Of a DNA stretch of 49,411 bases, positions 35,529 through 49,411 are shown one piece after another (position 1 is the first letter of the stretch; every line of letters begins with the position of its first letter). A program made the translations under genes and the position numbers. The notes below the pieces were generated by a model, which saw nothing but the letters and a program-made list of their open reading frames with translations, ran no database searches and was not told the origin of the DNA. The stretch comes from Deltaproteobacteria bacterium. GTDB lineage: Bacteria > Desulfobacterota > Desulfarculia > Adiutricales > Adiutricaceae. Location of the stretch: NCBI GenBank assembly GCA_031278475.1, contig JAITKK010000056.1, positions 1 through 49,411 on the forward strand. The letters are read 5' to 3'.

Positions 35529-36047
35529 ATGGAAAACATGACAGGCCCGCAAGGCCGCATCCCTGATCAAAACTTCAGCGAATGGCTGAAGCTCTATATA
35601 CCCGGAACGGAAGTGGAAGCCACCTTCCCCATCCCCCCGGAATTCAGGGAATACTTCGAGGATTGCCTTTACCCGCCCAGCATCCTGTTCTACGCCAGGG
35701 CGGTGATGGACACTACCGCCAGATTGTTCAACAAATCCGGTGCGCCGGACTATTCCAAAATATTCCCGGACAAGGTCGCGTACCCCAACAGCGCGAGGCG
35801 CCTCAGGGAATGGGTAAGGCTAATGGAGGTTGTGGAGGTGGACCGCCCCAACAAGAGGAGCCGCATCCTCAAGAGGGCGGGCGAGCTAAGGTGCTGCGGC
35901 AACCTCTTTTGGGAGCAGCACTCCGAGTGGCCTGACTGGACCCTCCAGAAGCCGGAGGACAAGGCGATGGATCCGATGGAGGCCGAACGCTGGCGCCGTT
36001 GGGCGGAAACCCGCTCCCACACGGCCCTCACCTTGGTCAAATCATAG
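35529..36047 (+). CDS. Uncharacterised 172-aa protein
   Basis: ATG preceded by AAAGAAAGGA; typical codon usage; followed by a strong terminator; no family recognised. Confidence 0.7.
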   Translation: MENMTGPQGRIPDQNFSEWLKLYIPGTEVEATFPIPPEFREYFEDCLYPPSILFYARAVMDTTARLFNKSGAPDYSKIFPDKVAYPNSARRLREWVRLMEVVEVDRPNKRSRILKRAGELRCCGNLFWEQHSEWPDWTLQKPEDKAMDPMEAERWRRWAETRSHTALTLVKS

Positions 36048-36205: not shown

Positions 36206-36922
36206 CTAAAGCCTCGAAAGTATGATTTCCTCAAGCTGCGCCGGCATTTCCAGCGGATGGAAATGGCCCCCTGGCAGCTCTATCACCTCGAGGGGGAAGC
36301 TTGTCCAGCCCTGCCAGGCGGACACGAGGGCGCGATCCACCATGTCGCTCTCGGCGTAGACGGCCGTTATGGGGGCGCCCAGCACGGGGATCGGCTCCGG
36401 CCGGGAATAGTTCTCCACCGCCACGAGGTCCGCCCTGTACACGGGCGTGAACAGGCCCATTTGCTCCTCGGTGGGGACCCTCTGGCCGAACAGCACGCCG
36501 AACCTATCCGCGCTTGTCTCCCACAGCTCAAGGTCCGGGAGCCCCGACATCCCCGGGGGTATGGGGTGCCAGCCCGGGGTCGAGTAGCTGGAGAGGAAAA
36601 GCCGCCGGGGCGCCCCGAGGCCGGCCCCGGTGATCGCCAAGGCCAGCAGGAACGCGTTCAAGGCCCCCATGCTGTGCCCGAAGACGTAATAGCCCTTCCC
36701 GCCCTCAAGAAAAGGCCTTGCCTGGGCAAGAAGGTCCGCGACAATGCCCCCCATGGAATAAAGAAGCGGCTCGTCCCGGCGTTTGCCGTGCCCGGGCAGA
36801 TCCAGCGGGGCCAGGGAAAGCCTGGCCCCCAGCCTTTGGAAGCCTTCCAGGTAGTGGAAGGCGCTTCCCGAGGCGTGGGAGAGTATGAAGAACACGGGGC
36901 CATTGAATGCTTCCGGGTTCAA
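36206..36922 (-). CDS. Type II thioesterase (NRPS-associated, alpha/beta hydrolase)
   Basis: ILSHASGSAFHYLEGFQRL, LDLPGHGKRRDEP, YYVFGHSMGALNAFLLA (intact GxSxG), PGGHFHPLE. Confidence 0.92.
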   Translation of the reverse strand: MNPEAFNGPVFFILSHASGSAFHYLEGFQRLGARLSLAPLDLPGHGKRRDEPLLYSMGGIVADLLAQARPFLEGGKGYYVFGHSMGALNAFLLALAITGAGLGAPRRLFLSSYSTPGWHPIPPGMSGLPDLELWETSADRFGVLFGQRVPTEEQMGLFTPVYRADLVAVENYSRPEPIPVLGAPITAVYAESDMVDRALVSAWQGWTSFPLEVIELPGGHFHPLEMPAQLEEIILSRL

Positions 36923-36969: not shown

Positions 36970-37935
36970 TCAAGGCAAGGCCCCCTGGGGGGCCTTCTCG
37001 GGATCCCCGGCCGCCGTGGGTTCCCCGGCCGCCTTGCCCGCCACGCCCCTGGACGCCGGGTCGCCCGCGAACAGAAGCCTCAGGCCCACGGAATTGTACC
37101 TCAGGGATGGTTTGAGCGGCATCCTGCGGGTGACCGTCAGGGTCTCGGGCTGGTTGTAGAAGGCCCCGCCCCGCAGCACCTTCTCGAGGCCGCTCCTGGG
37201 GCCGATGGGGTCCTGGTTCTGGCCGTTTGCGTAGAAGGCCGGGTTGTACCAGTCGGCCACCCACTCCCAGACGTTCCCCAGAACGTCGCGCAGCCCCAGC
37301 GGGTTGGGCTTTTTTAGGCCGATGGGGTGCGGCGTGCTCCCGGAGTTGCCCTTGTGCCAGGCGTAATCGCCCAGGTCGGCCAACTTTCCCGGGAACCCCG
37401 TGTCCTGTTGGGTGCCGCCCCTGGCGGCCAGCTCCCACTGGGCCTCGCTGGGTATCCTGTAGCCGTCGGTACCCTCCAGCTCGTTCAGCATGACCACGAA
37501 CTCGAAGGCGTCGGCCCAGGAGATGTTGTGCACCGGCCCGAGGGGGTCCTTGAAGCGGCTGGGGTTCATGCCCGTTACCTTCTCGTAGCTTGCCTGATCC
37601 AGCTCCTTCGCGGCTATGTGGAAGGGCTCGCTGATGCTCACCTCGTGGACCGGGCCCTCGCCGGGGAGTGCCCCCTCGCCCTCGTAACCCATGCTGAAAC
37701 TCCCGGGCCCCACCTTCACGAAGTCCATGCCCAGGCTGTTGCGGAAGCCCCCTGTGGCCTGGGGCGCCGCCTGGGCCTGCGGGGCCGCCTGGGCCTCCGC
37801 CCTGGCAGCCTGCGGGAGGGAAACAAACGCCAAGGCCAGGGCCGCAAGGAGGGAGAAGGCCGCCCCCGTCATGGCTCCCTTTGCCAGTCCCTTTGCCCCT
37901 CCCATGGCCCCCATCTTCCTGTGTCCTTCCCTCAT
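36970..37935 (-). CDS. Exported SUMF1/formylglycine-generating-enzyme-like protein, PvdO-like
   Basis: Signal peptide; NSLGMDFVKVGPGSFSMGYEGE, YRIPSEAQWELAARGG, NPLGLRDVLGNVWEWVADWY, KVLRGGAFYNQPETLTVTRR. Catalytic Cys pair absent. Confidence 0.9.
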   Translation of the reverse strand: MREGHRKMGAMGGAKGLAKGAMTGAAFSLLAALALAFVSLPQAARAEAQAAPQAQAAPQATGGFRNSLGMDFVKVGPGSFSMGYEGEGALPGEGPVHEVSISEPFHIAAKELDQASYEKVTGMNPSRFKDPLGPVHNISWADAFEFVVMLNELEGTDGYRIPSEAQWELAARGGTQQDTGFPGKLADLGDYAWHKGNSGSTPHPIGLKKPNPLGLRDVLGNVWEWVADWYNPAFYANGQNQDPIGPRSGLEKVLRGGAFYNQPETLTVTRRMPLKPSLRYNSVGLRLLFAGDPASRGVAGKAAGEPTAAGDPEKAPQGALP

Positions 37936-40900
37936 ATGCCTGCAAAACCCTTCAGAAGCCGCAAGGCCTGCCCCGCGGCCCCCCCTTGGATTAGCGAGAA
38001 GTGGTCCGCCTGGACCGTCTCCTCCGCGAACGGGCCCTTGGCCAGCCCGGATAGCCCGCTGGGGACGGCCCCCGGCGGGGGCACCGGGAAGGGGGACGCC
38101 AAGGCCGGCCTCAGGCAGAGGACCGGGGACGACAATGGCCGCGGCCTGTGGGCCCGCCAGGCCCCAAGCTCCCGCAGGGCCGCGCCCATCCTGCCCTCCC
38201 GCCTTTTGGGGCCGAAACCCTCGTAGTGGCCGAGCGAGCCAAGGAGGGCCAACGCGTCCGACTCCGGCGAGCCCTCGGGCTTGGAGGCCCCCTCCGGGGG
38301 GGACAAGGGGTCCAGCAGCAGCAGGCAGCTTAGCCTCGCCCCGGACAAGCCCTCGTACTGCCTAGCGGCCTCCCAGGCGAGCGGCCCCTTGAGTCCCAGG
38401 CCGGCCAGCACGAAGCCCCCTTGCGGGAACCGCTCGGCCAGGGCCCTGGCATAGGCGCCCGCAAGGTCCGCCAAGGGCCCGTCGGGCCCTTGGGCGGCGG
38501 GTCGCCCGTCCTCGGGATCCCGGCCCCCGCCGCCCAGCCATGGGTTCAGGGCCAGCACCCCCTGCCCCTCGGGCCAGGCGTCCATAAGCCCCCTGAAGGC
38601 CATGAGGCTCCCCGCAGGCCCCGGGCAGAGCGCGAGCTGCGGGCCCCCGCCGTCCCTCGCGTCGTACAGGGCCGGGCCGACGCGCTCCAAGAGAAGGTCC
38701 AGGGCGGCCGCGAGCTCCCTCGCGCTCCTCGCGTGGAGGACCGGCTCGGGGCCAGGGGCCACGCCCGCGAGATGCGAAAGGGCGGCCGACACCTCCACGG
38801 CCTTCAGGGAATCCCCCCCAAGGGCCACGAAGCTGTCGTTAAGGTATATGGTGCCTCCCAGGGCGTCCTTCAAGGCCTTGGACACCATCGCCTCGGAGAG
38901 GCTTCTGGGGGCCTTGTCACGGCCCGCGAGGAGCCCCGCCCCGTAGGGCCTGGGAAGCGCCGCCTCGTCCAGCTCGCCGTCCGGGCCTATGGGCCAGCGG
39001 GGGAGCGTCACTATGAAGCGGGGGACCAGGGCCGCCGGGAGCCTTTTGCCAAGGTGGTCCCGAAGCCCCCTCGCGAAGGCCGCGTCCTGGGAGGCCGTCC
39101 CCCCGGCCTCTTCCAGGCCGGGGGCCCCCGCGCCTTCCGGGGCCCCCGGCCCCGAAAGGGGCCGGGCAGGGTCGCCTTCCGGGGCCGTCGGGGAATCGGG
39201 AACGCTCGGGCCCGGCACCGGGAGCGGCTCATAGGCGAGCCCGGCCTCGTCATCGTCCGACAGCTCCGGCATGTCCAAAAGGTCGAAGTCCCCGGATTCC
39301 CCGGAGAGGGTGTCCAGGGCCTCGTAGGGGAAGACATCCTCCTGGCCAAGCTCGCCGTGCTCGGGCCCCAGCGGGGCCCCCTCCCGGATGACGTAGGCGT
39401 AAAGCGAGCTTCCCCCGCTTCCCGGGGCCGCGAGAACCCTGCAGTCGAAGACCCCGGGGAAGGCCGTTATCAGCCGTTCCATGTCCCCAAGCGAGGGAGA
39501 GCGGCCGGCCAGGTTCAGAAGGGGGCGCATCCCGCCCAGGTGTGCCACCGAGCCGTCCGGGAGGATCCTGGCCCTTTCCGAGGTCCTGAAGTACCTGCGT
39601 CCGTTGGCCGGGAGAACCCCCGGATCCCTCGCGAAGGCCTTGGCGCTCTCCTCGGGGAGCCTCAGGTAGCCCTGGAAGAGCGTAGGCCCGGAGACGCAGA
39701 GCTCGCCCGGGTATCCCTGGGGCCTGGGCGAGCCGTCCTTCCCCAGGACAAGGGCCGAGACGCCCTGGACCGGGCGGCCGAGGCCCGGATCCCCGTAACG
39801 GGCGCAGAGAAGGGGCCCGGCCGCCTCCCGCACCCTGAACTCGGACCAGACCGCGTAGGGCAGGCCCGTCGAATCCACCGGAATGCCGCCGTTAAGCCTC
39901 AGGACCCGTAAGGCGCCCGGGGCCCTGAGCCCCAAAAACTCCCTTGCCAGGGCCCCGGCGATTGTCCCGTGGGCGACGCCGCCCTCCTCCATGAAATCCC
40001 TCAGGGCCTTCCCGGAGGCCCTTGCGCCCTGCCCTGGGAAGAGGCACTCCGCGCCCGCGAGAAGCATGGCCAGGATGTCGGGTACGAAAAACGGCGAGAA
40101 CGGCGGCGGGGCCAACACCCTGTCGCCCTTCCCGATGCCGTAAAAGCCGGGGAGCCACAGGGCGTGGGAGGACAAGGCGTCGCCCCCGAAGGCTATTAGC
40201 GCGGGCCTTCCTGAAAGCGGCCCGCGGGGCACCAAGAGGGCCGCCCCCCCGGGAAGCGGCGGTCCCTCGGGCGGGAGCCCGGGGAAGGGGCTCAGGCGGC
40301 CGTTTTCGCGGACCAGCACCTTGGGGCCCTCGAAACCCTTGGACAAAGAGGACAGCCTCTCATGGGCAATCAGAAGCTCGGGGCCCGCCTCGGAAAGGTA
40401 CGCCGAGACCGCATCCCTGGGCGCGAAGGGGTCAAGCGGGAGGACGGCCGCGCCCGAGGCGAGAAGGCCCACGATTGCGGCCACCAGATCCGGCCCGGGC
40501 GGGAGCAGCACGGCCCCCAGCTGCCCGTTCCCCAGCTCGCCCGAGAATTCCTGGAACTCCCTGGCCCGCGCCCAGAGCGCGGCCCTTCCCACGCCCGCGC
40601 CCTTCATTGCCAAAAGCGGCGTGTCGGCCCCGTCCGAGAGCCTTCCCACCAGAAGCCCGGAAAGCGCGGGTGCCGGCCCGGGGAGCAGGGCCTGGGCCGC
40701 GAGAGAGGGGTTCGGGTCCCTTTGGCCGGAAAACGCCTTGAACGCGAGATCCGGGTTGTCCGACGCGTTCCGCAAGGCCCCGAGGAAGGCGTCCCGCAGA
40801 AGCGTCGCGGCCCCCTCTGGCATCGAAGCCCTATTGAACTCCAAAAACCCCGATGCTTTGGGCTCATGAACCAGATGCAGGGCCAGATCGTATGCGGGAT

Positions 40901-43900
40901 GAAGCCTCCCCGAGAAAGCCCCCCCGGCTTCCTCCGGTTCGTCAAGGCCCATGACGACTATGTGCCCCAGATAGGCGTCCGCCGGGAATTGCGCGCGCCC
41001 CGGGCCCAGGATCCTCGGAAGGGGCGGGAGCCCCGCCTTGCCGCAGTCTATCAGCTCCTGGGAAACACGGGCCGCGTCCGAGAAGCGGGTGTCGTCCGCG
41101 AATTCAAGCAGCATCGGGACGAAACGGGGTCCCTCCGGGCCCTTCCCCACCAAGAGCCCGAAGCCCCCTTGCCCGGAGTCCAGCCAGCGGGCGAGGCTCA
41201 GCCCCCAAGCCGCGGCCATGAAGGCCGGAACGCTCACCCCCGCCTTCGAGGAGGCCTCCCCTATCCTTTCCGAAAGCCCCTGGTCGATGCCAAGCCCCAA
41301 GCTGACCTGGCCCTCGGTAAGCAAACCTGTGTCGCCCATGCCCGTACGGGCGTCAGGGACATTCAGGCCTTCCAACAGCGCGACAGGCTCCCAGCCGGAA
41401 AGAAGCCCCCTTGCCCGTTCCATGTCGGAGGCGCTCGCGCCTTCCCTGTCGTCGTTCCCTATGAGGGAATAGGGTTTTTCGCCCGATGGCCCTTCAAGCC
41501 CACCGGAAATTTCCGCGATGCGCCCCAACACCCACTTGGCCCCCAAGGGATCCAAGGCGAAGAGGCCGTAGGCGAGCCTTAGCCTTGTTCCGTCCCCGGC
41601 TCGCTCCATGGAAAGGACGCTTAGCCCCCCCTTGCTTATGCCTGTGGCCGCATGCCCCAGCGGGAGTGGGTTCGGGTCAGGCGCAATCTGGTCCCCGCCC
41701 GGGTCAAAACCCGGGCCAGGGCCCGTAAGCGCTGCCTTCAGTGGCTCGCCCTCGGCCAACCGGATCCTTAGCATGGGGAGTTCGGAAACCAACCTGCCGA
41801 GAGCCTCTTCCACCTTGGCGGGGTCAAGCTCCACTGGGACCTCCAGGGTGGCGATGCCCTGGTCGGGCGCGGCGTCCCCCTGGGAAAGGGCCCTGTAGGC
41901 AAGGGACGCCCTAAGCGGACCAAGGGCGAAGCCCTCGCCTTCCCTGAGCCCCCGCGGGGGCTCACTTAACGGAAAAGGGCGGGTTTGGCCCTCCCCCGAA
42001 AGCGGATCCTGGGCCAAGTCCCCGTGCCCGTCCGCAGCGGCGTCCGCGCCCTGCTCCCCGGCTTGCCCAATGGGCAAATCCGAATCCCCGGCAAGCTCGG
42101 CCTCGAAGTTCAGTATCCCGGAATCCCCCTCCGATGGCCCGGGCATATCGGGCTCGAGCATGTCGGGCTCTAGTATCTCGGGCTCGGGCTCGAGGCCGAG
42201 GCTTTCCTCGGCGGACAGGCCGCCCAGCTCGTCGAGGCCGATTGCGCCCTCGGGAAGCACGAAACCCTGATCCAGAAGGCTTAAGGCCTCGGCCCCCAAG
42301 GCCGGGGGGATTTTGGGTTCCTTTGCGAACCCGGTCCCCGACCCGGTTCCCGACCCAATCCCCGAATCGGTTCCCGACCCAAGTTCCGGCCCGCTGCCGG
42401 TCGCCATGGAAGGATGGACATCCGGGCCCAGGGATGAGTCTATCTCGGGTTCAAGGGAGGGATCGAGTTCGGAATCATATCCCAGCTCCTCCGGGATGGC
42501 ATCGGGCGACAGTTCCATAATATCGTCAAGGCCTGTTTCGGCCCACGGGCCATCGGCGGAATCAATCCCCCCGCCCGGAGGCTCGGCAGTCCTTGGTCGA
42601 AGCCCCGGGGAACCCGTCCCCTCTTGGCCTTCCGCGACCATCCCGTCGAAGAGCGCGAACAGCCCGGGGCTGGTATCCTCTGCCTGGGCCTCGGAGCCGT
42701 TCCCGCCGCGGGAGGGGAGGACGTCCGGACCGTCGATATCCTCGAGCTCGTCCGGGCCGGGCGGGGAAAGAGGCGCAAGCCCCGCGACAGGGGCATGGGG
42801 GACCGGCGGTTCATGGTATCTGCCGGTTGGGACGTAAGGGGGCCCGCTTGGTTGCGCGCCCTGCGCGAACGCGAGGTGCCTCGCGATTTCCCCCGCGAGG
42901 GACCATGGCGTGGAAAAGGCCATTATCTCCCGAACGCCCGCGGGCGCGCCCCTTGCCTTTAGTTCCTTGGACAAAAGGTAGGCATCGTCTTCGGTCATGC
43001 CGTTCGCGAGCATGGATTCCTGGTCCGCTATGTCCTCCCCGAAAAGGGCCTTGTGGGATTCCCGCACGGCCTTCAGGGCCTGCCCGAATGCCTCGCCCGA
43101 GACGCCCTCGGGCGGCGGGGGCGTTCCCTCGGGCGGGGACGCGAGCCGCAGGGTATCGATCTCCCCGCGGGGGTCCAATGGCAGCCTGTCGGATATTATC
43201 AGGTAGGCGGGGTTGAGCCACGGGGGGAGCGACCCCGCGATCCCGAGGCGCGCCCTGGAAAGCTGCCTCGCGCCCTCGCCTAGGTCGCCCTCTATCCCCG
43301 CGAACAGCCACAACGCGAGCGTTTCCTGGGACTTGTCGCTTAGGATGGTCCCCAGGCGCACGCCCTTCAGAAACGATTTCGCGAATATGCGCCGCTCGAC
43401 GAGGGGAGGGGCGTAGATTCTTCCCTGGAGCGAGGGGATGTCGGCCGATGCGAGCGGGTTGAAATGGCCGTCGAGGTCCAAAAAGGCGCATTCGCCCATT
43501 GGGACCATTCCCTCGGGAAGCCTTGACAGCCGCGGCTTGGGCGTGAGCCCCATCGTTTGGTCCGGCCCCCTTGGGGCCGGGCCCCCAGAATCGCCGGCCT
43601 CGGCAAAAGCCCCGGCTTGGGGAAAGGAAGTAACGACAGGCCCTTCGCCTTCCTCTTCGCTTGCAAGCGCTTGGGCCTCAAGGGCCGCGGGTCCCGGCAT
43701 TCCGGAAGCCGTGCCGGCCTTGCCTTTGTTTTCCGGGCCGCGCCTTGTCTTGGAGGCCCCGGAGAGCCATGCCAGGTCCACCCCCTCGAAATCCTTGGGC
43801 TTCAGGGCCAGCTTGTTGGGAGTCTTTTCCCGGGCCGAGCCGTCGGCTTCTTCCCCGTCTGGGCCCTCCATGCCCGGGGGGGTCTCGTAATAGTCCTCCG

Positions 43901-46900
43901 CGGTCTTCAGCGTGTCGGGCACGTGGAAGCGCGGGATCCCGTCGGACACCAGGGGCCCCGCGAGATTGAGCCGGCCTATCGAAAGCCGCGGGAGGGCGTT
44001 GCCGCCCGCCCCCAGCACGAAGGCGATGACGCCCGGTGCGGGCCGCCCCATGGGCTGCTCGCCCGAGCCAAGGGGGATGTCCCTGTGCAGGGCCGGAAAG
44101 CCCGGCCTGTCGTAGACGTAGGTGACCCTCAGCCCCTCCCTCCCGGCGTAGAGGGTGCCAGGATCGCGGCCGCCCAGGGCAAGGGCGCGGAGCTTTGGCA
44201 GATCGGCTTTTCCCAGAAGGGATTTGCCTACCCTCGCGGGAAGGTAGGCGAAGGATATGGCGTTGTCCCGGACGAAGGCGTGGAGGCCCTCCTGGCCGTG
44301 GCCCTCCCTGAAATCGCACTCGTGCTCGCAAAGGCAGGCCCCTTGGGCCAAGGCGGGCATGGCCTCGGAAAAGAGCCTCAGGTGCCCCAGCCCCTTGGGA
44401 AGCAAGGCCCTGTCGCCCGGCCTCAGGGGGAACAGGGCCTTGGCCGAGCCCACCCTGTTGAGCGCGTTGGAGTAGCTCAGGCACTCCGGGGCGACGCCTC
44501 CGCCAAGCGCCCCGAGGCCCTCGCCGTGGATGACCGCGACCGTCCTGTCGTCGCCATCGGGGGAATCCAAAAACTGCAGGAGCACGAGCCGGTCAAAGCC
44601 CCCTTGCGGGGGCTTTGGCCGGGGGGGCTCCAGGAACAAATCGAGGTCCAGGAATTTCCCGCGGTGCCCAAGGGAGGATAGGGTGGCGGCACTGGCTGTC
44701 GGCCCTATCACCGTGGTCAGCCCATCCCTCACGGCCTTTGAAAGCGTCGCGGCCGACAGTTTCGGATCCAGCGTCACAAGGGTCGCCTCGGTCCTGAGGA
44801 TTGCGAGGGAGCAGGCGACGGACAGGGCCCCGTACGGGAGGAACAGCCCCACCTTGGGAAGCTCCTTGGGGGCCTTGGGGAAATCCAGGTAGATCCTCTG
44901 CTCCAGCCCGGAGACGAAAAGCTCCAGTTCCGAATGGGTGAGCGTCAGGGACTGCGAGGAGATCGCGGGCAAGTCCGAATGGACCACGGATGCCTTTATG
45001 GTCACCTGCGGGAGCGGCGGGATGTCGCCAAGGGGCTCGTAGCCGGGGCCCGCGGCCGCCCCGAGGACGTCCTCCAGCCGCTCTTTGGGGAGCCCGGGCG
45101 GGAATGCGTGGGCGCCGCCCTGCCCCTGGGCTTGGACCCCGCCATGGCCTTTGGCCCCCCTTCCCGCGAGCATGCCCTGCAGGGTGTCCCGCCACAGGGA
45201 CAGGAAATCCGACAGCGGCTCCGTCCGGAAGCGCGCGGGCGAGGCGTGGAGCATCAGCTCCGCCCCGCCCTCGCCCACCTGGCAAGAGGCGGCAAGCTCG
45301 AACTCGGAGGCCCTGGGGACCCTCACGGGTATCTCGTTTATCTCAAGGGACGGCGGCCCAAGCCGCGACAGCCCCTCGTGGCAAAACGCTATATCCCCGA
45401 ACGAGAGCCCAAGGGCCGAGGCCGCCCTGAGGGCGTCCCTGGCGTAGGGCGCGGACGCGACGGAATAATCCTCCAGCCCGCGCGCCATGCCCTGGAGCCC
45501 GTCGCCCGTGTCCGTGGGAAGGGCTATGGGGACAGGGTCCATGAGCTGCCCCACCAGGCCCTGGAAGGCCGAGGGCAGCCCCTGCCTCTGGGGCCCGAGC
45601 CTCGCATAGACGGCCCTGCCCTCCCCGGAATAAAGGGACAGGGTGGTGGCGAACGCGGCCTCGGCCAATAGCTCCGGCCTTACCCTCCAGTTCCTGGAAA
45701 GGTTCCTGAGCTTGCGGAAGGCCTGGTCGGAAAGCCCCAGGGCGAGCGGTCCTGAGGCGAGCCCCGGGTCCGGATCCCCCAAAGCCGGGGGCAATGCCTG
45801 GGAGAGGGATTTTACGCCCTGCAAGGCCTCCCGCAGGTAGGCCGAGGCGTCCTTCGCGGGTTCGCCCATCCAGGAGGACAGGGGCTTGGGCGTCCCCCTG
45901 GGGGGGCGCCCGGCCAAAAGCTCCTCAACAACCACCGATAGGCCGTAGCCGTCAAGGGCGAGCTCGGAATAGCTTATGAGGAGGTAGGAGATCCCCTGGG
46001 TCTCGAAGAGATCCACCCTGAAGAGCGGCCCGTCGGGGGGCCCCCCGTCGCGTATGCCGTCCGCGAAGGCCAGGACCCTTTCCAGGGCCTCCTTCGGGCC
46101 GTAGGAGGATAGCGAGGTATAGGCGAACGGAAGCCCGGCCTCCGGCATCGCGCCCAAGAGCGGCTCCCCGTCCCGCTCCAGGACCCTCAGGCGCAAGGCC
46201 TCGTGCCTATCGGAGAGCAGCCCCAGCCTTTCGCCCAGGGCGATGGGATCGAGCGCCGCGGCCAATTTCAGGAGCCTCTGCCTGTTCCCCCTCCCCACCG
46301 TCTCCCTGGCCCTCATAAGGGAAAGCTGGTAAGGCCCGGGAGGGTAGGCCCAGAGCGGCCGGAGCCCCGAGGCCTTCCCCAGCTCGGGCGAGGGGCCGGA
46401 ACCAAGGGCCTGGGCCTTCGCGGGGCCCGCGGCCTCGCCTCCCGCGCCCCCTTGGGCGCGGGGGGCGGAAGGACCCCCGGTCCCGCCGGGCCCCCCGGGC
46501 CCGCCCAGGCCGTCGGGGGGCGCCGGGTGCATGTGGCCCGCGGCCTCCCGCAGGTCCAAAGAGGAGAGGAGTTTGCCGGGGTCGAGGATCCAGCCGTCCG
46601 CCAAGAGCCCCGCCGTGACCATGGTCGCGTGCAGGGAATCGCCCCCCAGATCCAAAAAGGAATCCATGGGCCTGGGCCGGGAGTCCGGGGCCAGCCCAAG
46701 GGCCTCGCGGACCCTTTGGAGCAGGGCCTTCTCGGCCGGGCCGCTGAGGCCGCCCTCGTCGGGGAGCGGAACCGGGGCCGGGAGCCTCGCGATGTCCACC
46801 TCGCCGTAGGGATCGAGCGGCAGCTCGGTCACGAAGGCGAGCCTCGAGGGGATCTCGCTGTGCCACATCATGCCCCACAGGCTTGAGAGCAGGCCCCGCT

Positions 46901-49411
46901 CCAGGCGCAGCGACTCCGCGGGGGAACCCGCGCCCGGAAGGGAGGTGTTGGGCATCACCAGGTACGCGCAGAGCGTGGGCATGAAGCTGGCCTGGAGGCT
47001 GTCGTCCCTCTGCGCGACGAAGGCGTCCAGCACATTCGGGAGCCAAGAGAGGGTCCTCGCGATCCTCGCGGGATCGACCGGCAGCCCGTGCCTTCCCGGA
47101 ATCCTCCCGCCGACCTTGCCGGTGGGGTCGAAGCGCCCGTCAGGGCGCCTCCGGCCGAGGAAGCCGGTGAGGTACAGGCTTGTGCCGCCCCACTTGCCAG
47201 GTGCCGCCCCAAGCGCCGGGTCGGGCGCGAAGGGCCTCCCGCCCCCGGGCGGGTCGCCAAGGTAGGCGGAAGGCACGGTCTCGCCGCCTATGGAAAGCTC
47301 GCCCGGGTAGCCCGGGGCGAGCAGGCCGCCTTTCTCGCCCAGGACCCAGGCGGGGCTCCCCTCCAGGGGCTCGCCGAAGGAGTCCGGGAGCCTGCCTGGG
47401 TGCGGCTTGTCCAGCATGCACAGGAGCCCTGTCTCGGGGCCGCCCTGGAAGGCGATTACCCTTAGATCGGGCTTGCCGGCGAACAGCCTCGCCTCCTCCT
47501 TGCGCCCAGGCGGGGCCCAGGCGAGCCCCGGGCCCCTCGCCCACACGAGCCTCAGGTTCCCGCCCGGGTACGCGGACAGGAAGGGTTTGACGGCCATGGG
47601 CGGGAGCGGGATTACCGTTACGCCCCTGGATTCCGCCATGGCCGCGAGCGTCGCGGGGGTCGACCTGTCGGACTCGGAGGCTATGACCCCGGCGTTCCCG
47701 GAGGACAAAGCGAACAGCAGTTCCAGGACGAAGAGGTCCGAGCCCTTGGGGCTGGTTATGGCCAAGAGATCCCCTGGCTCCGGGAGTATCGCGCGCGACA
47801 GGGCCGCGACGGCCCTGGAGAGCGCGAGCTGGGTCACCCCGGTCGCGACCCTGCGGCTGGTCACGATGCCGCCAAGGCCGTCGTCCTCCATCTCGTGGTC
47901 TTTCAGGAATATGAGGGCAAGCGACGAGGGATCCGGATCGTCCGCGTCCGGGAGCCCATCCTCCACGGCATCCAGCGGGTAGTCCGGGGCCGCGGGCGGC
48001 TGGGACTGCGGGTCGCCGTTATAGTCGAGGAGGGCCTCGCCCGGGACGCCCCCCAGCAGCCCTTTCAGGGCCTCGGGGAAGGGCCTGGGGCCCATCGCCG
48101 CGAAAGGCCTGAAGGGCGCGAGCCCGGACCCAAGCTCGGCCTCGCCGAGGGAGGGATCCAGGAGAAGGGCCGGCCTTCCGGACAGAAGGCAGCCCAAAAG
48201 GGCCCCCGGGAAGGTCAGCCCGTCATCCAGGACCAGGGCGACGGGCGCGGGCTTTCCTGGATCAGCATTTTCGGTCGCGGCATCGGGCGCGGCATCGGTC
48301 GCGGGATCGGTTGCCGAATCGGTCGCGTCCCCCGCGAACTGGCGGAGCACGGTCGCGACCTTGGCCGCCTGGGCCCTTAGCTCGCCCCGGCCCATGGACC
48401 TGTCCTTCAGGAACAACGCGGCCCCGAAGGTCTCGTCCGCGCCGCCCGCGAGGGCAAGGCCGGCAACCGCCGGAAGGTCCCTGGGGGGCGCGGCCGCGTT
48501 GTTGTTTATGAGGACCTTGAGTTTCCCGGCCTCCAGAAGTATCGCGGGCGACAGGGCGATCGATGGGTTTTCGGAAGCGGCCCTGAGAAGGGTCTCGTAA
48601 CCCTGGGCGTAGACCTCCAGCTGCCAGGGCTCGAAATGCCTGCGCTCGTAGACCATGTCGAGCGCGAGGCCGTCGCCCAGGAGCAGCCAGAAAAGGGATA
48701 GCGGGAATCCCTCGGCCCTGGACCCCGGGCTTGTCGCGCTCAGGGTGAAACCGACGCCGTCCGCCGAGCTTACCTTGGGCGCGGGCGGGAAGAACAGATG
48801 GGACAAGGTCTCCCGGCCGAGAGGCGACACCCTCGCAATCTCCGTGTAGGTGAGGATCCTTTCGCGGTCCATGGCAAACCCGTTGATGGACGCCTCGACT
48901 TCACGGGCGAGCCCCGCGAACGATGTCCCTTCCCGCGCGTCCGCCGCGAGGGGGAGCATCACGGCCATGGGCCCTATGGGGCGGTTGTCGCCCCCGCTGG
49001 ATATGTAGCCCGTGGCGACCTTGCCCTCGCCCGTTGCCAGTGACAGGTATCCCAGCCATGCGGCGGAAAGGAAGGCGGAAAGCCCGACTCCCAGGGACGC
49101 CGCCGCCTTCCCGAAGGATTCGAGCATGTCGGCCTTGAAGCGGACGGGGACCAGGCCCACCCCCTCCATGTCCTTCTCGGAGGGCCTCGCGAGCCTGGAC
49201 GGGAGCCTTGAGGGGACCCTCAGGCCCGAGAGCCTTTCGCGCCAAAAAGACTCCGCCTCCAGACGCATGGCGGCGTCCTGGGCCCAGGGGTCGTCCTGGG
49301 GGATCGCCTGCGCGGCTTCCGGTTTCACGCCCCCAAGTATGGCCGAGAGTATCCTCGTTATGGAATTGGGGTCCGCGGCTATGTGGTGCACGGAGAAAAC
49401 GATGACGCAGC
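37932..49411 (-). CDS. Giant non-ribosomal peptide synthetase-like protein (5' end beyond window). Visible order: C*-A1-PCP1-C2-A2-PCP2-linker-C3-A3-PCP3-TE
   Basis: Open to the window edge (upstream in frame CVIVFS-VHHIAAD). LGGDSL PCP motifs at 46632-46649 and 38805-38822. A-domain C-terminal motifs LPLDPYGEVD (46791-46823), LPLDPRGEID (43155-43184), WPIGPDGELDE (38964-38996). C-terminal alpha/beta TE at about 37940-38650. Confidence 0.93.
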   Translation of the reverse strand, partial: CVIVFSVHHIAADPNSITRILSAILGGVKPEAAQAIPQDDPWAQDAAMRLEAESFWRERLSGLRVPSRLPSRLARPSEKDMEGVGLVPVRFKADMLESFGKAAASLGVGLSAFLSAAWLGYLSLATGEGKVATGYISSGGDNRPIGPMAVMLPLAADAREGTSFAGLAREVEASINGFAMDRERILTYTEIARVSPLGRETLSHLFFPPAPKVSSADGVGFTLSATSPGSRAEGFPLSLFWLLLGDGLALDMVYERRHFEPWQLEVYAQGYETLLRAASENPSIALSPAILLEAGKLKVLINNNAAAPPRDLPAVAGLALAGGADETFGAALFLKDRSMGRGELRAQAAKVATVLRQFAGDATDSATDPATDAAPDAATENADPGKPAPVALVLDDGLTFPGALLGCLLSGRPALLLDPSLGEAELGSGLAPFRPFAAMGPRPFPEALKGLLGGVPGEALLDYNGDPQSQPPAAPDYPLDAVEDGLPDADDPDPSSLALIFLKDHEMEDDGLGGIVTSRRVATGVTQLALSRAVAALSRAILPEPGDLLAITSPKGSDLFVLELLFALSSGNAGVIASESDRSTPATLAAMAESRGVTVIPLPPMAVKPFLSAYPGGNLRLVWARGPGLAWAPPGRKEEARLFAGKPDLRVIAFQGGPETGLLCMLDKPHPGRLPDSFGEPLEGSPAWVLGEKGGLLAPGYPGELSIGGETVPSAYLGDPPGGGRPFAPDPALGAAPGKWGGTSLYLTGFLGRRRPDGRFDPTGKVGGRIPGRHGLPVDPARIARTLSWLPNVLDAFVAQRDDSLQASFMPTLCAYLVMPNTSLPGAGSPAESLRLERGLLSSLWGMMWHSEIPSRLAFVTELPLDPYGEVDIARLPAPVPLPDEGGLSGPAEKALLQRVREALGLAPDSRPRPMDSFLDLGGDSLHATMVTAGLLADGWILDPGKLLSSLDLREAAGHMHPAPPDGLGGPGGPGGTGGPSAPRAQGGAGGEAAGPAKAQALGSGPSPELGKASGLRPLWAYPPGPYQLSLMRARETVGRGNRQRLLKLAAALDPIALGERLGLLSDRHEALRLRVLERDGEPLLGAMPEAGLPFAYTSLSSYGPKEALERVLAFADGIRDGGPPDGPLFRVDLFETQGISYLLISYSELALDGYGLSVVVEELLAGRPPRGTPKPLSSWMGEPAKDASAYLREALQGVKSLSQALPPALGDPDPGLASGPLALGLSDQAFRKLRNLSRNWRVRPELLAEAAFATTLSLYSGEGRAVYARLGPQRQGLPSAFQGLVGQLMDPVPIALPTDTGDGLQGMARGLEDYSVASAPYARDALRAASALGLSFGDIAFCHEGLSRLGPPSLEINEIPVRVPRASEFELAASCQVGEGGAELMLHASPARFRTEPLSDFLSLWRDTLQGMLAGRGAKGHGGVQAQGQGGAHAFPPGLPKERLEDVLGAAAGPGYEPLGDIPPLPQVTIKASVVHSDLPAISSQSLTLTHSELELFVSGLEQRIYLDFPKAPKELPKVGLFLPYGALSVACSLAILRTEATLVTLDPKLSAATLSKAVRDGLTTVIGPTASAATLSSLGHRGKFLDLDLFLEPPRPKPPQGGFDRLVLLQFLDSPDGDDRTVAVIHGEGLGALGGGVAPECLSYSNALNRVGSAKALFPLRPGDRALLPKGLGHLRLFSEAMPALAQGACLCEHECDFREGHGQEGLHAFVRDNAISFAYLPARVGKSLLGKADLPKLRALALGGRDPGTLYAGREGLRVTYVYDRPGFPALHRDIPLGSGEQPMGRPAPGVIAFVLGAGGNALPRLSIGRLNLAGPLVSDGIPRFHVPDTLKTAEDYYETPPGMEGPDGEEADGSAREKTPNKLALKPKDFEGVDLAWLSGASKTRRGPENKGKAGTASGMPGPAALEAQALASEEEGEGPVVTSFPQAGAFAEAGDSGGPAPRGPDQTMGLTPKPRLSRLPEGMVPMGECAFLDLDGHFNPLASADIPSLQGRIYAPPLVERRIFAKSFLKGVRLGTILSDKSQETLALWLFAGIEGDLGEGARQLSRARLGIAGSLPPWLNPAYLIISDRLPLDPRGEIDTLRLASPPEGTPPPPEGVSGEAFGQALKAVRESHKALFGEDIADQESMLANGMTEDDAYLLSKELKARGAPAGVREIMAFSTPWSLAGEIARHLAFAQGAQPSGPPYVPTGRYHEPPVPHAPVAGLAPLSPPGPDELEDIDGPDVLPSRGGNGSEAQAEDTSPGLFALFDGMVAEGQEGTGSPGLRPRTAEPPGGGIDSADGPWAETGLDDIMELSPDAIPEELGYDSELDPSLEPEIDSSLGPDVHPSMATGSGPELGSGTDSGIGSGTGSGTGFAKEPKIPPALGAEALSLLDQGFVLPEGAIGLDELGGLSAEESLGLEPEPEILEPDMLEPDMPGPSEGDSGILNFEAELAGDSDLPIGQAGEQGADAAADGHGDLAQDPLSGEGQTRPFPLSEPPRGLREGEGFALGPLRASLAYRALSQGDAAPDQGIATLEVPVELDPAKVEEALGRLVSELPMLRIRLAEGEPLKAALTGPGPGFDPGGDQIAPDPNPLPLGHAATGISKGGLSVLSMERAGDGTRLRLAYGLFALDPLGAKWVLGRIAEISGGLEGPSGEKPYSLIGNDDREGASASDMERARGLLSGWEPVALLEGLNVPDARTGMGDTGLLTEGQVSLGLGIDQGLSERIGEASSKAGVSVPAFMAAAWGLSLARWLDSGQGGFGLLVGKGPEGPRFVPMLLEFADDTRFSDAARVSQELIDCGKAGLPPLPRILGPGRAQFPADAYLGHIVVMGLDEPEEAGGAFSGRLHPAYDLALHLVHEPKASGFLEFNRASMPEGAATLLRDAFLGALRNASDNPDLAFKAFSGQRDPNPSLAAQALLPGPAPALSGLLVGRLSDGADTPLLAMKGAGVGRAALWARAREFQEFSGELGNGQLGAVLLPPGPDLVAAIVGLLASGAAVLPLDPFAPRDAVSAYLSEAGPELLIAHERLSSLSKGFEGPKVLVRENGRLSPFPGLPPEGPPLPGGAALLVPRGPLSGRPALIAFGGDALSSHALWLPGFYGIGKGDRVLAPPPFSPFFVPDILAMLLAGAECLFPGQGARASGKALRDFMEEGGVAHGTIAGALAREFLGLRAPGALRVLRLNGGIPVDSTGLPYAVWSEFRVREAAGPLLCARYGDPGLGRPVQGVSALVLGKDGSPRPQGYPGELCVSGPTLFQGYLRLPEESAKAFARDPGVLPANGRRYFRTSERARILPDGSVAHLGGMRPLLNLAGRSPSLGDMERLITAFPGVFDCRVLAAPGSGGSSLYAYVIREGAPLGPEHGELGQEDVFPYEALDTLSGESGDFDLLDMPELSDDDEAGLAYEPLPVPGPSVPDSPTAPEGDPARPLSGPGAPEGAGAPGLEEAGGTASQDAAFARGLRDHLGKRLPAALVPRFIVTLPRWPIGPDGELDEAALPRPYGAGLLAGRDKAPRSLSEAMVSKALKDALGGTIYLNDSFVALGGDSLKAVEVSAALSHLAGVAPGPEPVLHARSARELAAALDLLLERVGPALYDARDGGGPQLALCPGPAGSLMAFRGLMDAWPEGQGVLALNPWLGGGGRDPEDGRPAAQGPDGPLADLAGAYARALAERFPQGGFVLAGLGLKGPLAWEAARQYEGLSGARLSCLLLLDPLSPPEGASKPEGSPESDALALLGSLGHYEGFGPKRREGRMGAALRELGAWRAHRPRPLSSPVLCLRPALASPFPVPPPGAVPSGLSGLAKGPFAEETVQADHFSLIQGGAAGQALRLLKGFAGI

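Follow-up and report, generated by a model that had tools for sequence, protein, structure and literature searches.

We report a giant pseudo-NRPS, which probably lost catalysis in the common ancestor of four bacterial genera (g1, g4, g7 and g8) and has since been maintained under purifying selection in a non-enzymatic capacity, and for which a role in scaffolding or binding with its first adenylation-like domain (A1) as core is inferred. That the protein represents a conserved pseudo-megasynthase rather than a product of decay or misalignment is concluded from the loss of residues throughout the clade, the open frames, dN/dS ratios of 0.19-0.40 and the canonical state of the relatives in sister genera. 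As nearly all catalytic residues are gone and selection still preserves the protein, it probably fulfils another, non-enzymatic job. Direct evidence for function, expression and ligand is lacking, and a role as scaffold or binding hub, in which carriers might be loaded in trans, is only inferred.

The window, i.e. the whole stretch of DNA that was analysed (49,411 nucleotides; contig C195 of genome G000), contains a single open frame of 3,825 codons at positions 37932-49409 of the minus strand, in agreement with a sequence-only reading that had counted more than 3,819. The frame runs off the contig end, so that only part of the gene is contained in the window. Its upstream part is provided by contig C134, on which a 3,485-codon frame begins with an ATG start and runs off base 1. 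The first 119 bases of C134 are identical to the last 119 bases of the window, a whole-genome check detected the shared 119-mer at no other place, and the orthologues are unbroken across the C195/C134 junction. Presumably, the overlap corresponds to one assembly word, which would fit the k119 contig names in related MAG records. The joined protein comprises 7,271 aa. Since colinear frames of 6,889, 7,067, 7,209 and 9,470 aa are present in related genomes, the giant frame is more than a product of chance. The features are as follows (window positions unless a contig is named):

37932-49409, minus strand: last 3,825 codons of the pseudo-NRPS (7,271 aa in total); the rest is on C134
C134 1-10455, minus strand (locus L009): 5' part of the giant gene, sharing a 119-base overlap with the window
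48489-49409, minus strand: condensation-like domain C4, 3' part (5' part on C134); HHIAAD kept
46773-48470, minus strand: adenylation-like domain A3; A3 loop, A7 Asp and A10 Lys lost (GEVD)
46530-46736, minus strand: PCP after A3; LGGDS kept, Ser in 5/8 orthologues
44967-46361, minus strand: condensation-like domain C5; HHxxxDG replaced by YSELALD
43128-44966, minus strand: adenylation-like domain A4; A3 motif, A5 Glu, A7 and A10 lost
42828-43115, minus strand: PCP after A4; without Ser (NGMTED), Ser in 0/9 orthologues
41298-42827, minus strand: low-complexity Gly/Ser/Asp/Pro/Glu linker; conservation 21%
40578-41300, minus strand: remnant of a sixth C-like domain; profile match only in the orthologues of G008, G028, G014, G020 and G032
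38943-40565, minus strand: adenylation-like domain A5; A3 motif, A7 Asp and A10 Lys lost (GELD)
38700-38921, minus strand: terminal PCP; LGGDS kept, Ser in 7/9 orthologues having the domain, deleted in G001
37935-38690, minus strand: thioesterase-like domain (TE); nucleophile Ser replaced (GLGLKG), Asp and His positions present here
36970-37935, minus strand: FGE/SUMF1-family protein; nearest NCBIfam model PvdO, far below cut-off
36206-36922, minus strand: type II thioesterase; GHSMG, Asp and His intact
35529-36047, plus strand, convergent: 172-aa protein of unidentified family; present in 9/11 clade genomes and 0/26 others

According to profile matches, the full-length protein is arranged in the order PCP-like/aminotransferase/C1/C2/A1/C3/A2/C4/A3/PCP/C5/A4/PCP/C-remnant/A5/PCP/TE, the N-terminal aminotransferase being of the HemL-like class III. 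With C-A-PCP modules and a TE, the architecture is that of a functional type I NRPS, but the A-domain core motifs, the condensation His and the TE nucleophile required of such an enzyme are not preserved. The window by itself yielded Pfam matches to AMP-binding (four stretches), Condensation (two) and PP-binding (two) and a sub-threshold match to Thioesterase, confirming the C-A-PCP order with terminal TE read from the letters. The losses claimed for this part were also borne out: the A3 motif is unrecognisable and TGD is absent in all three A domains, the A10 Lys is replaced by Glu in each of them (GEVD, GEID and GELD), one PCP is devoid of Ser while the other two keep LGGDS, and the TE carries GLGLKG in place of GxSxG.

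These losses extend across the clade. The A3 motif and the A10 Lys are absent from all five A modules in every aligned orthologue; the latter is replaced by Arg in all A1 domains and by Glu, Asn, Gly, Ser or Arg in the other modules. The A7 Asp is changed to Ile, Val, Leu or another residue in nearly all A modules with single exceptions, e.g. A3 of G008, and A2 lacks the whole C-terminal subdomain in 6/6 orthologues. Of note, the alignments of A3 to A5 are less certain than those of A1 and A2. In the condensation motif, the catalytic His is retained in merely 2 of 33 domains, both of them in G000 (C3 and C4), whereas the structural Asp is present in 32 of 33; canonical relatives show both residues in 9/9 domains. 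The HHIAAD of C4 is absent from the five other aligned orthologues. Likewise, the PLP lysine of the aminotransferase is missing from all six pseudo-NRPS orthologues, but present in 3/3 canonical relatives. The TE Ser is gone in G000 and in 6/8 other aligned orthologues, a Ser at this position being found only in G008 and G004. The PCPs behave differently: Ser is kept in 5/8 cases in the PCP following A3 (PCP3) and in 7/9 cases in the terminal one (PCP5), but in 0/9 cases in PCP4, and the N-terminal PCP-like segment lacks it as well. In G001, G004 and G008 both PCP3 and PCP5 are missing or without Ser, and G001 has lost PCP and TE.

In all, 37 genomes of the family were compared. The related named records are Deltaproteobacteria MAGs; assignment to the family Adiutricaceae and an origin from termite gut are inferred from record names and a MAG study (PMC9137090). 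Contigs were searched with the A1 alignment; the C-terminal 926 aa used as query gave no match. The pseudo-NRPS was present in 11/11 genomes of genera g1, g4, g7 and g8, with complete or near-complete frames of 6,889 to 9,470 codons. G020 (L105, L106, L107) apparently carries two copies with A1 regions ~75% identical, unless two strains are mixed in this MAG. In the rpoB tree g1, g7 and g8 form one clade (support 1.0); g4 could not be included as rpoB is missing from its assembly. The clade sits on a long rpoB stem and evolves fast in general. As a separate observation, several genomes of the family encode an extra, diverged RpoB paralogue: L146 (G028:C13), L147 (G024:C367), L148 (G023:C107), L149 (G019:C10), L150 (G033:C27), and also in G031 and G029. 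Its Rif region is changed and GDKxxGRHGNKG is altered in some cases, and the G023 copy is fused to an RpoC-like part (2,849 aa). This may represent a further altered paralogue that has been retained, or else an RNA polymerase insensitive to antibiotics.

All five A modules group separately, each in a clade of its own that spans the species (support 0.995-1.0), which means that the protein was passed on in one piece. Canonical relatives exist in g6 and g10 (G023, G033 and G036): these share the PCP-aminotransferase-C-A start and homologous modules, but unlike the pseudo-NRPS have intact catalytic motifs. A1-A3 group near G023_2684/G033_2190/G036_2591 and A5 near G023_4906. The canonical form is patchy (3 of the g6/g10 genomes examined), while the dead form occurs in all genomes of its own clade. 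The NRPS genes of g9 and g11 carry canonical motifs and are not of the pseudo-NRPS kind. Next to the canonical relatives, a protein of the beta-lactamase family (PF00144) is encoded that bears an autotransporter beta-domain and may act as a prodrug peptidase at the cell surface (L038:1806-5624, L047:9447-13328).

Within genus g7, Nei-Gojobori counting yielded dN/dS ratios of 0.19-0.40, i.e. not near 1; these values are approximate, since the synonymous sites of this GC-rich DNA are almost saturated (pS ~0.45). Indels among orthologues are in frame, and no frameshifted allele was found among five full-length and several partial orthologues. Thus, relaxed selection and broken frames, the criteria for a pseudogene, are not met, while the sequence-based criterion for a conserved pseudoenzyme, namely that catalytic residues have disappeared from a protein whose fold and frame are maintained by purifying selection, is fulfilled; the absence of enzymatic activity is inferred. 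Together with the lack of intact motifs within the clade, this supports the earlier proposal, which took the protein to be repurposed or else strongly diverged and not a case of ordinary decay.

Conservation is unevenly distributed. A1 is 62-70% identical to the G000 copy across the clade genomes, other parts only 21-45%; RpoB reaches 74-86%, a level which A1 approaches. The A1 pocket is near-fixed (D V M S V/L W C/Y V/I T/A, with R for Lys), and the sequence GGxxGVMGFSK, which is clade-specific and located ~25 residues before the lost A3 position, is found in 10/10 A1 copies scanned. A1 retains the A4 Asp, the A5 Glu, A6 and the A8 Arg, but has Ile or Val for the A7 Asp in all copies. No PCP follows it directly, and in most species neither a PCP nor an active C domain adjoins. 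An AlphaFold model of A1 built from 22 sequences (pLDDT 84) keeps the A-domain fold, and its best PDB matches are NRPS A domains, with Txo2 and GrsA being best by E-value; an earlier model from 6 sequences was poor (pLDDT 49) and was discarded. Judged from sequence conservation, A1 is likely the functional core; the assignment of A1 as hub and of the rest as scaffold is inferred from relative conservation.

Downstream of the giant gene, the type II thioesterase, which meets the GxSxG/Asp/His criterion, follows the pseudo-NRPS in G000, G001, G004, G007, G024, G028 and G032; in G014 it lies on another contig, and none was detected in g8. Its triad is intact in 7 genomes. Only in G000 is the FGE-family gene inserted between both genes, and no homologue was detected in the compared stretches of other pseudo-NRPS loci; its start codon overlaps the stop of the giant frame, i.e. 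the genes are translationally coupled, and the protein has an apparent signal peptide. For the 172-aa protein no Pfam or NCBIfam match was obtained; its C-terminal part is Trp/Pro-rich and invariant. Upstream of the giant gene, a 135-aa secreted-looking protein is encoded (L009:11708-12115, minus strand), with a homologue only in G001 among the compared loci.

Which explanation accounts best for these data? A misreading, i.e. intact motifs that were misaligned or a chimeric assembly, is hardly credible, even though the gene is split over two contigs in G000: canonical motifs occur nowhere in the proteins and no intact motif set is found at the same positions in within-clade orthologues, whereas the same regular expressions detect the motifs in G023, G033 and G036, and intact relatives are seen only in these sister genera outside the clade; the finding is the same in independent MAGs, the overlap of 119 bases is unique and the orthologues are continuous at the junction. 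An early stage of ordinary pseudogene decay, in which the frame merely happens to be open, could invoke the high GC content, which lengthens chance frames (many overlapping frames are present), and the losses in G001. However, frames of ~7,000 codons in several genera at 30-50% identity, the dN/dS ratios, the presence in 11/11 genomes and the retention of the structural Asp where the catalytic His is lost leave this explanation very improbable. It is also doubtful that A1 is a diverged but active enzyme, using GGxxGVMGFSK for A3 and Arg for the A10 Lys in an altered adenylation or ligase reaction. The retained core motifs and pocket, the invariant loop, which resembles a displaced phosphate-binding sequence, and the kept accessory enzymes would fit such an activity, but the A7 Asp, which binds ribose, and the A10 Lys are replaced in all copies, a PCP or active C domain is not at hand in most species, and A2-A5, the C domains and the aminotransferase are dead too.

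More weight, albeit still limited, can be given to a carrier platform, in which A and C domains are dead and PCP3 and PCP5 are pantetheinylated and loaded by another enzyme, with thioesterase II releasing or editing the load. The Ser residues kept in both PCPs, the intact and syntenic thioesterase II and the precedent of inactive A domains complemented in trans elsewhere, e.g. in albicidin synthesis (PMC8949500), are compatible with this idea; a PPTase-family gene is present in 16/17 genomes, a count that does not discriminate. However, G001, G004 and G008 lack Ser-bearing PCPs yet keep the protein, and G001 and G004 also keep thioesterase II. Moreover, no stand-alone A-PCP was recognised in G000, whose other AMP-binding matches represent four separate genes, none assigned to amino-acid activation, and the most conserved part, A1, has no following PCP. 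Hence, of the sequence-only reading the non-ordinary nature of the NRPS stands, while its suggestion of trans-loaded PCPs is weakened by the three species in which both Ser-bearing PCPs are dead or deleted: such loading is possible where the PCPs bear Ser, but cannot be the function common to all species.

For the preferred explanation, conserved non-enzymatic function, we envisage that an aminotransferase-containing NRPS lost catalysis in the common ancestor of the four genera and that purifying selection then kept the whole protein as a giant scaffold or binding protein with A1 as its core. A1 would bind a ligand or partner via the conserved amino-acid pocket and the clade-specific Gly-rich loop without ATP chemistry, and the remaining modules would provide spacing and surfaces for docking. 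Two PCPs might, in most species, still hold a group attached via phosphopantetheine, on which the intact thioesterase II encoded next to the giant gene would act. It must be cautioned that the mostly kept PCP Ser, the intact thioesterase II and the PvdO-like neighbour in G000 speak against a non-enzymatic reading, as they are what an active pathway would possess. The generally fast evolution of the clade also counts against it.

Genome mining treats every NRPS as a peptide producer; a complete assembly line that is dead but selected would demonstrate that megasynthases can be exapted. It also offers a testable case of a 7,000-residue modular enzyme that turns into something different, and sister genera supply intact relatives with which it can be compared. 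Only tentatively, and short of an even chance, do we suggest that a whole NRPS was turned into a non-enzymatic core protein of this clade, in which A1, neofunctionalised through its new Gly-rich loop and fixed ligand pocket, serves as sensor or hub, and that it is the first pseudo-megasynthase. Single A or C domains without activity have been described before, but a conserved NRPS that is dead throughout was not found in the open-access literature, to which our search was restricted. Degenerate A core motifs inside a megasynthetase are likewise seen in the albicidin, enduracidin and ramoplanin systems, where inactive A domains are complemented in trans (PMC8949500), and in fungal SidD with its truncated dA domains (PMC10192304). 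However, in albicidin-type systems and SidD one domain is dead and the line is otherwise active, whereas in the pseudo-NRPS every module, the C domains, the aminotransferase and mostly the TE are dead. The X domains of glycopeptide NRPSs (PMC8949500) provide another likeness, as they have a C-fold with mutated HHxxxDG and recruit other proteins; yet the X domain is single, resides in an active line and has a known P450 partner, while no partner is known for the pseudo-NRPS. Like pseudoenzymes in general, the pseudo-NRPS has kept fold and ligand pocket under purifying selection and has lost its catalytic residues, but it differs from them in scale, being a complete 7,000-aa multimodular megasynthase.
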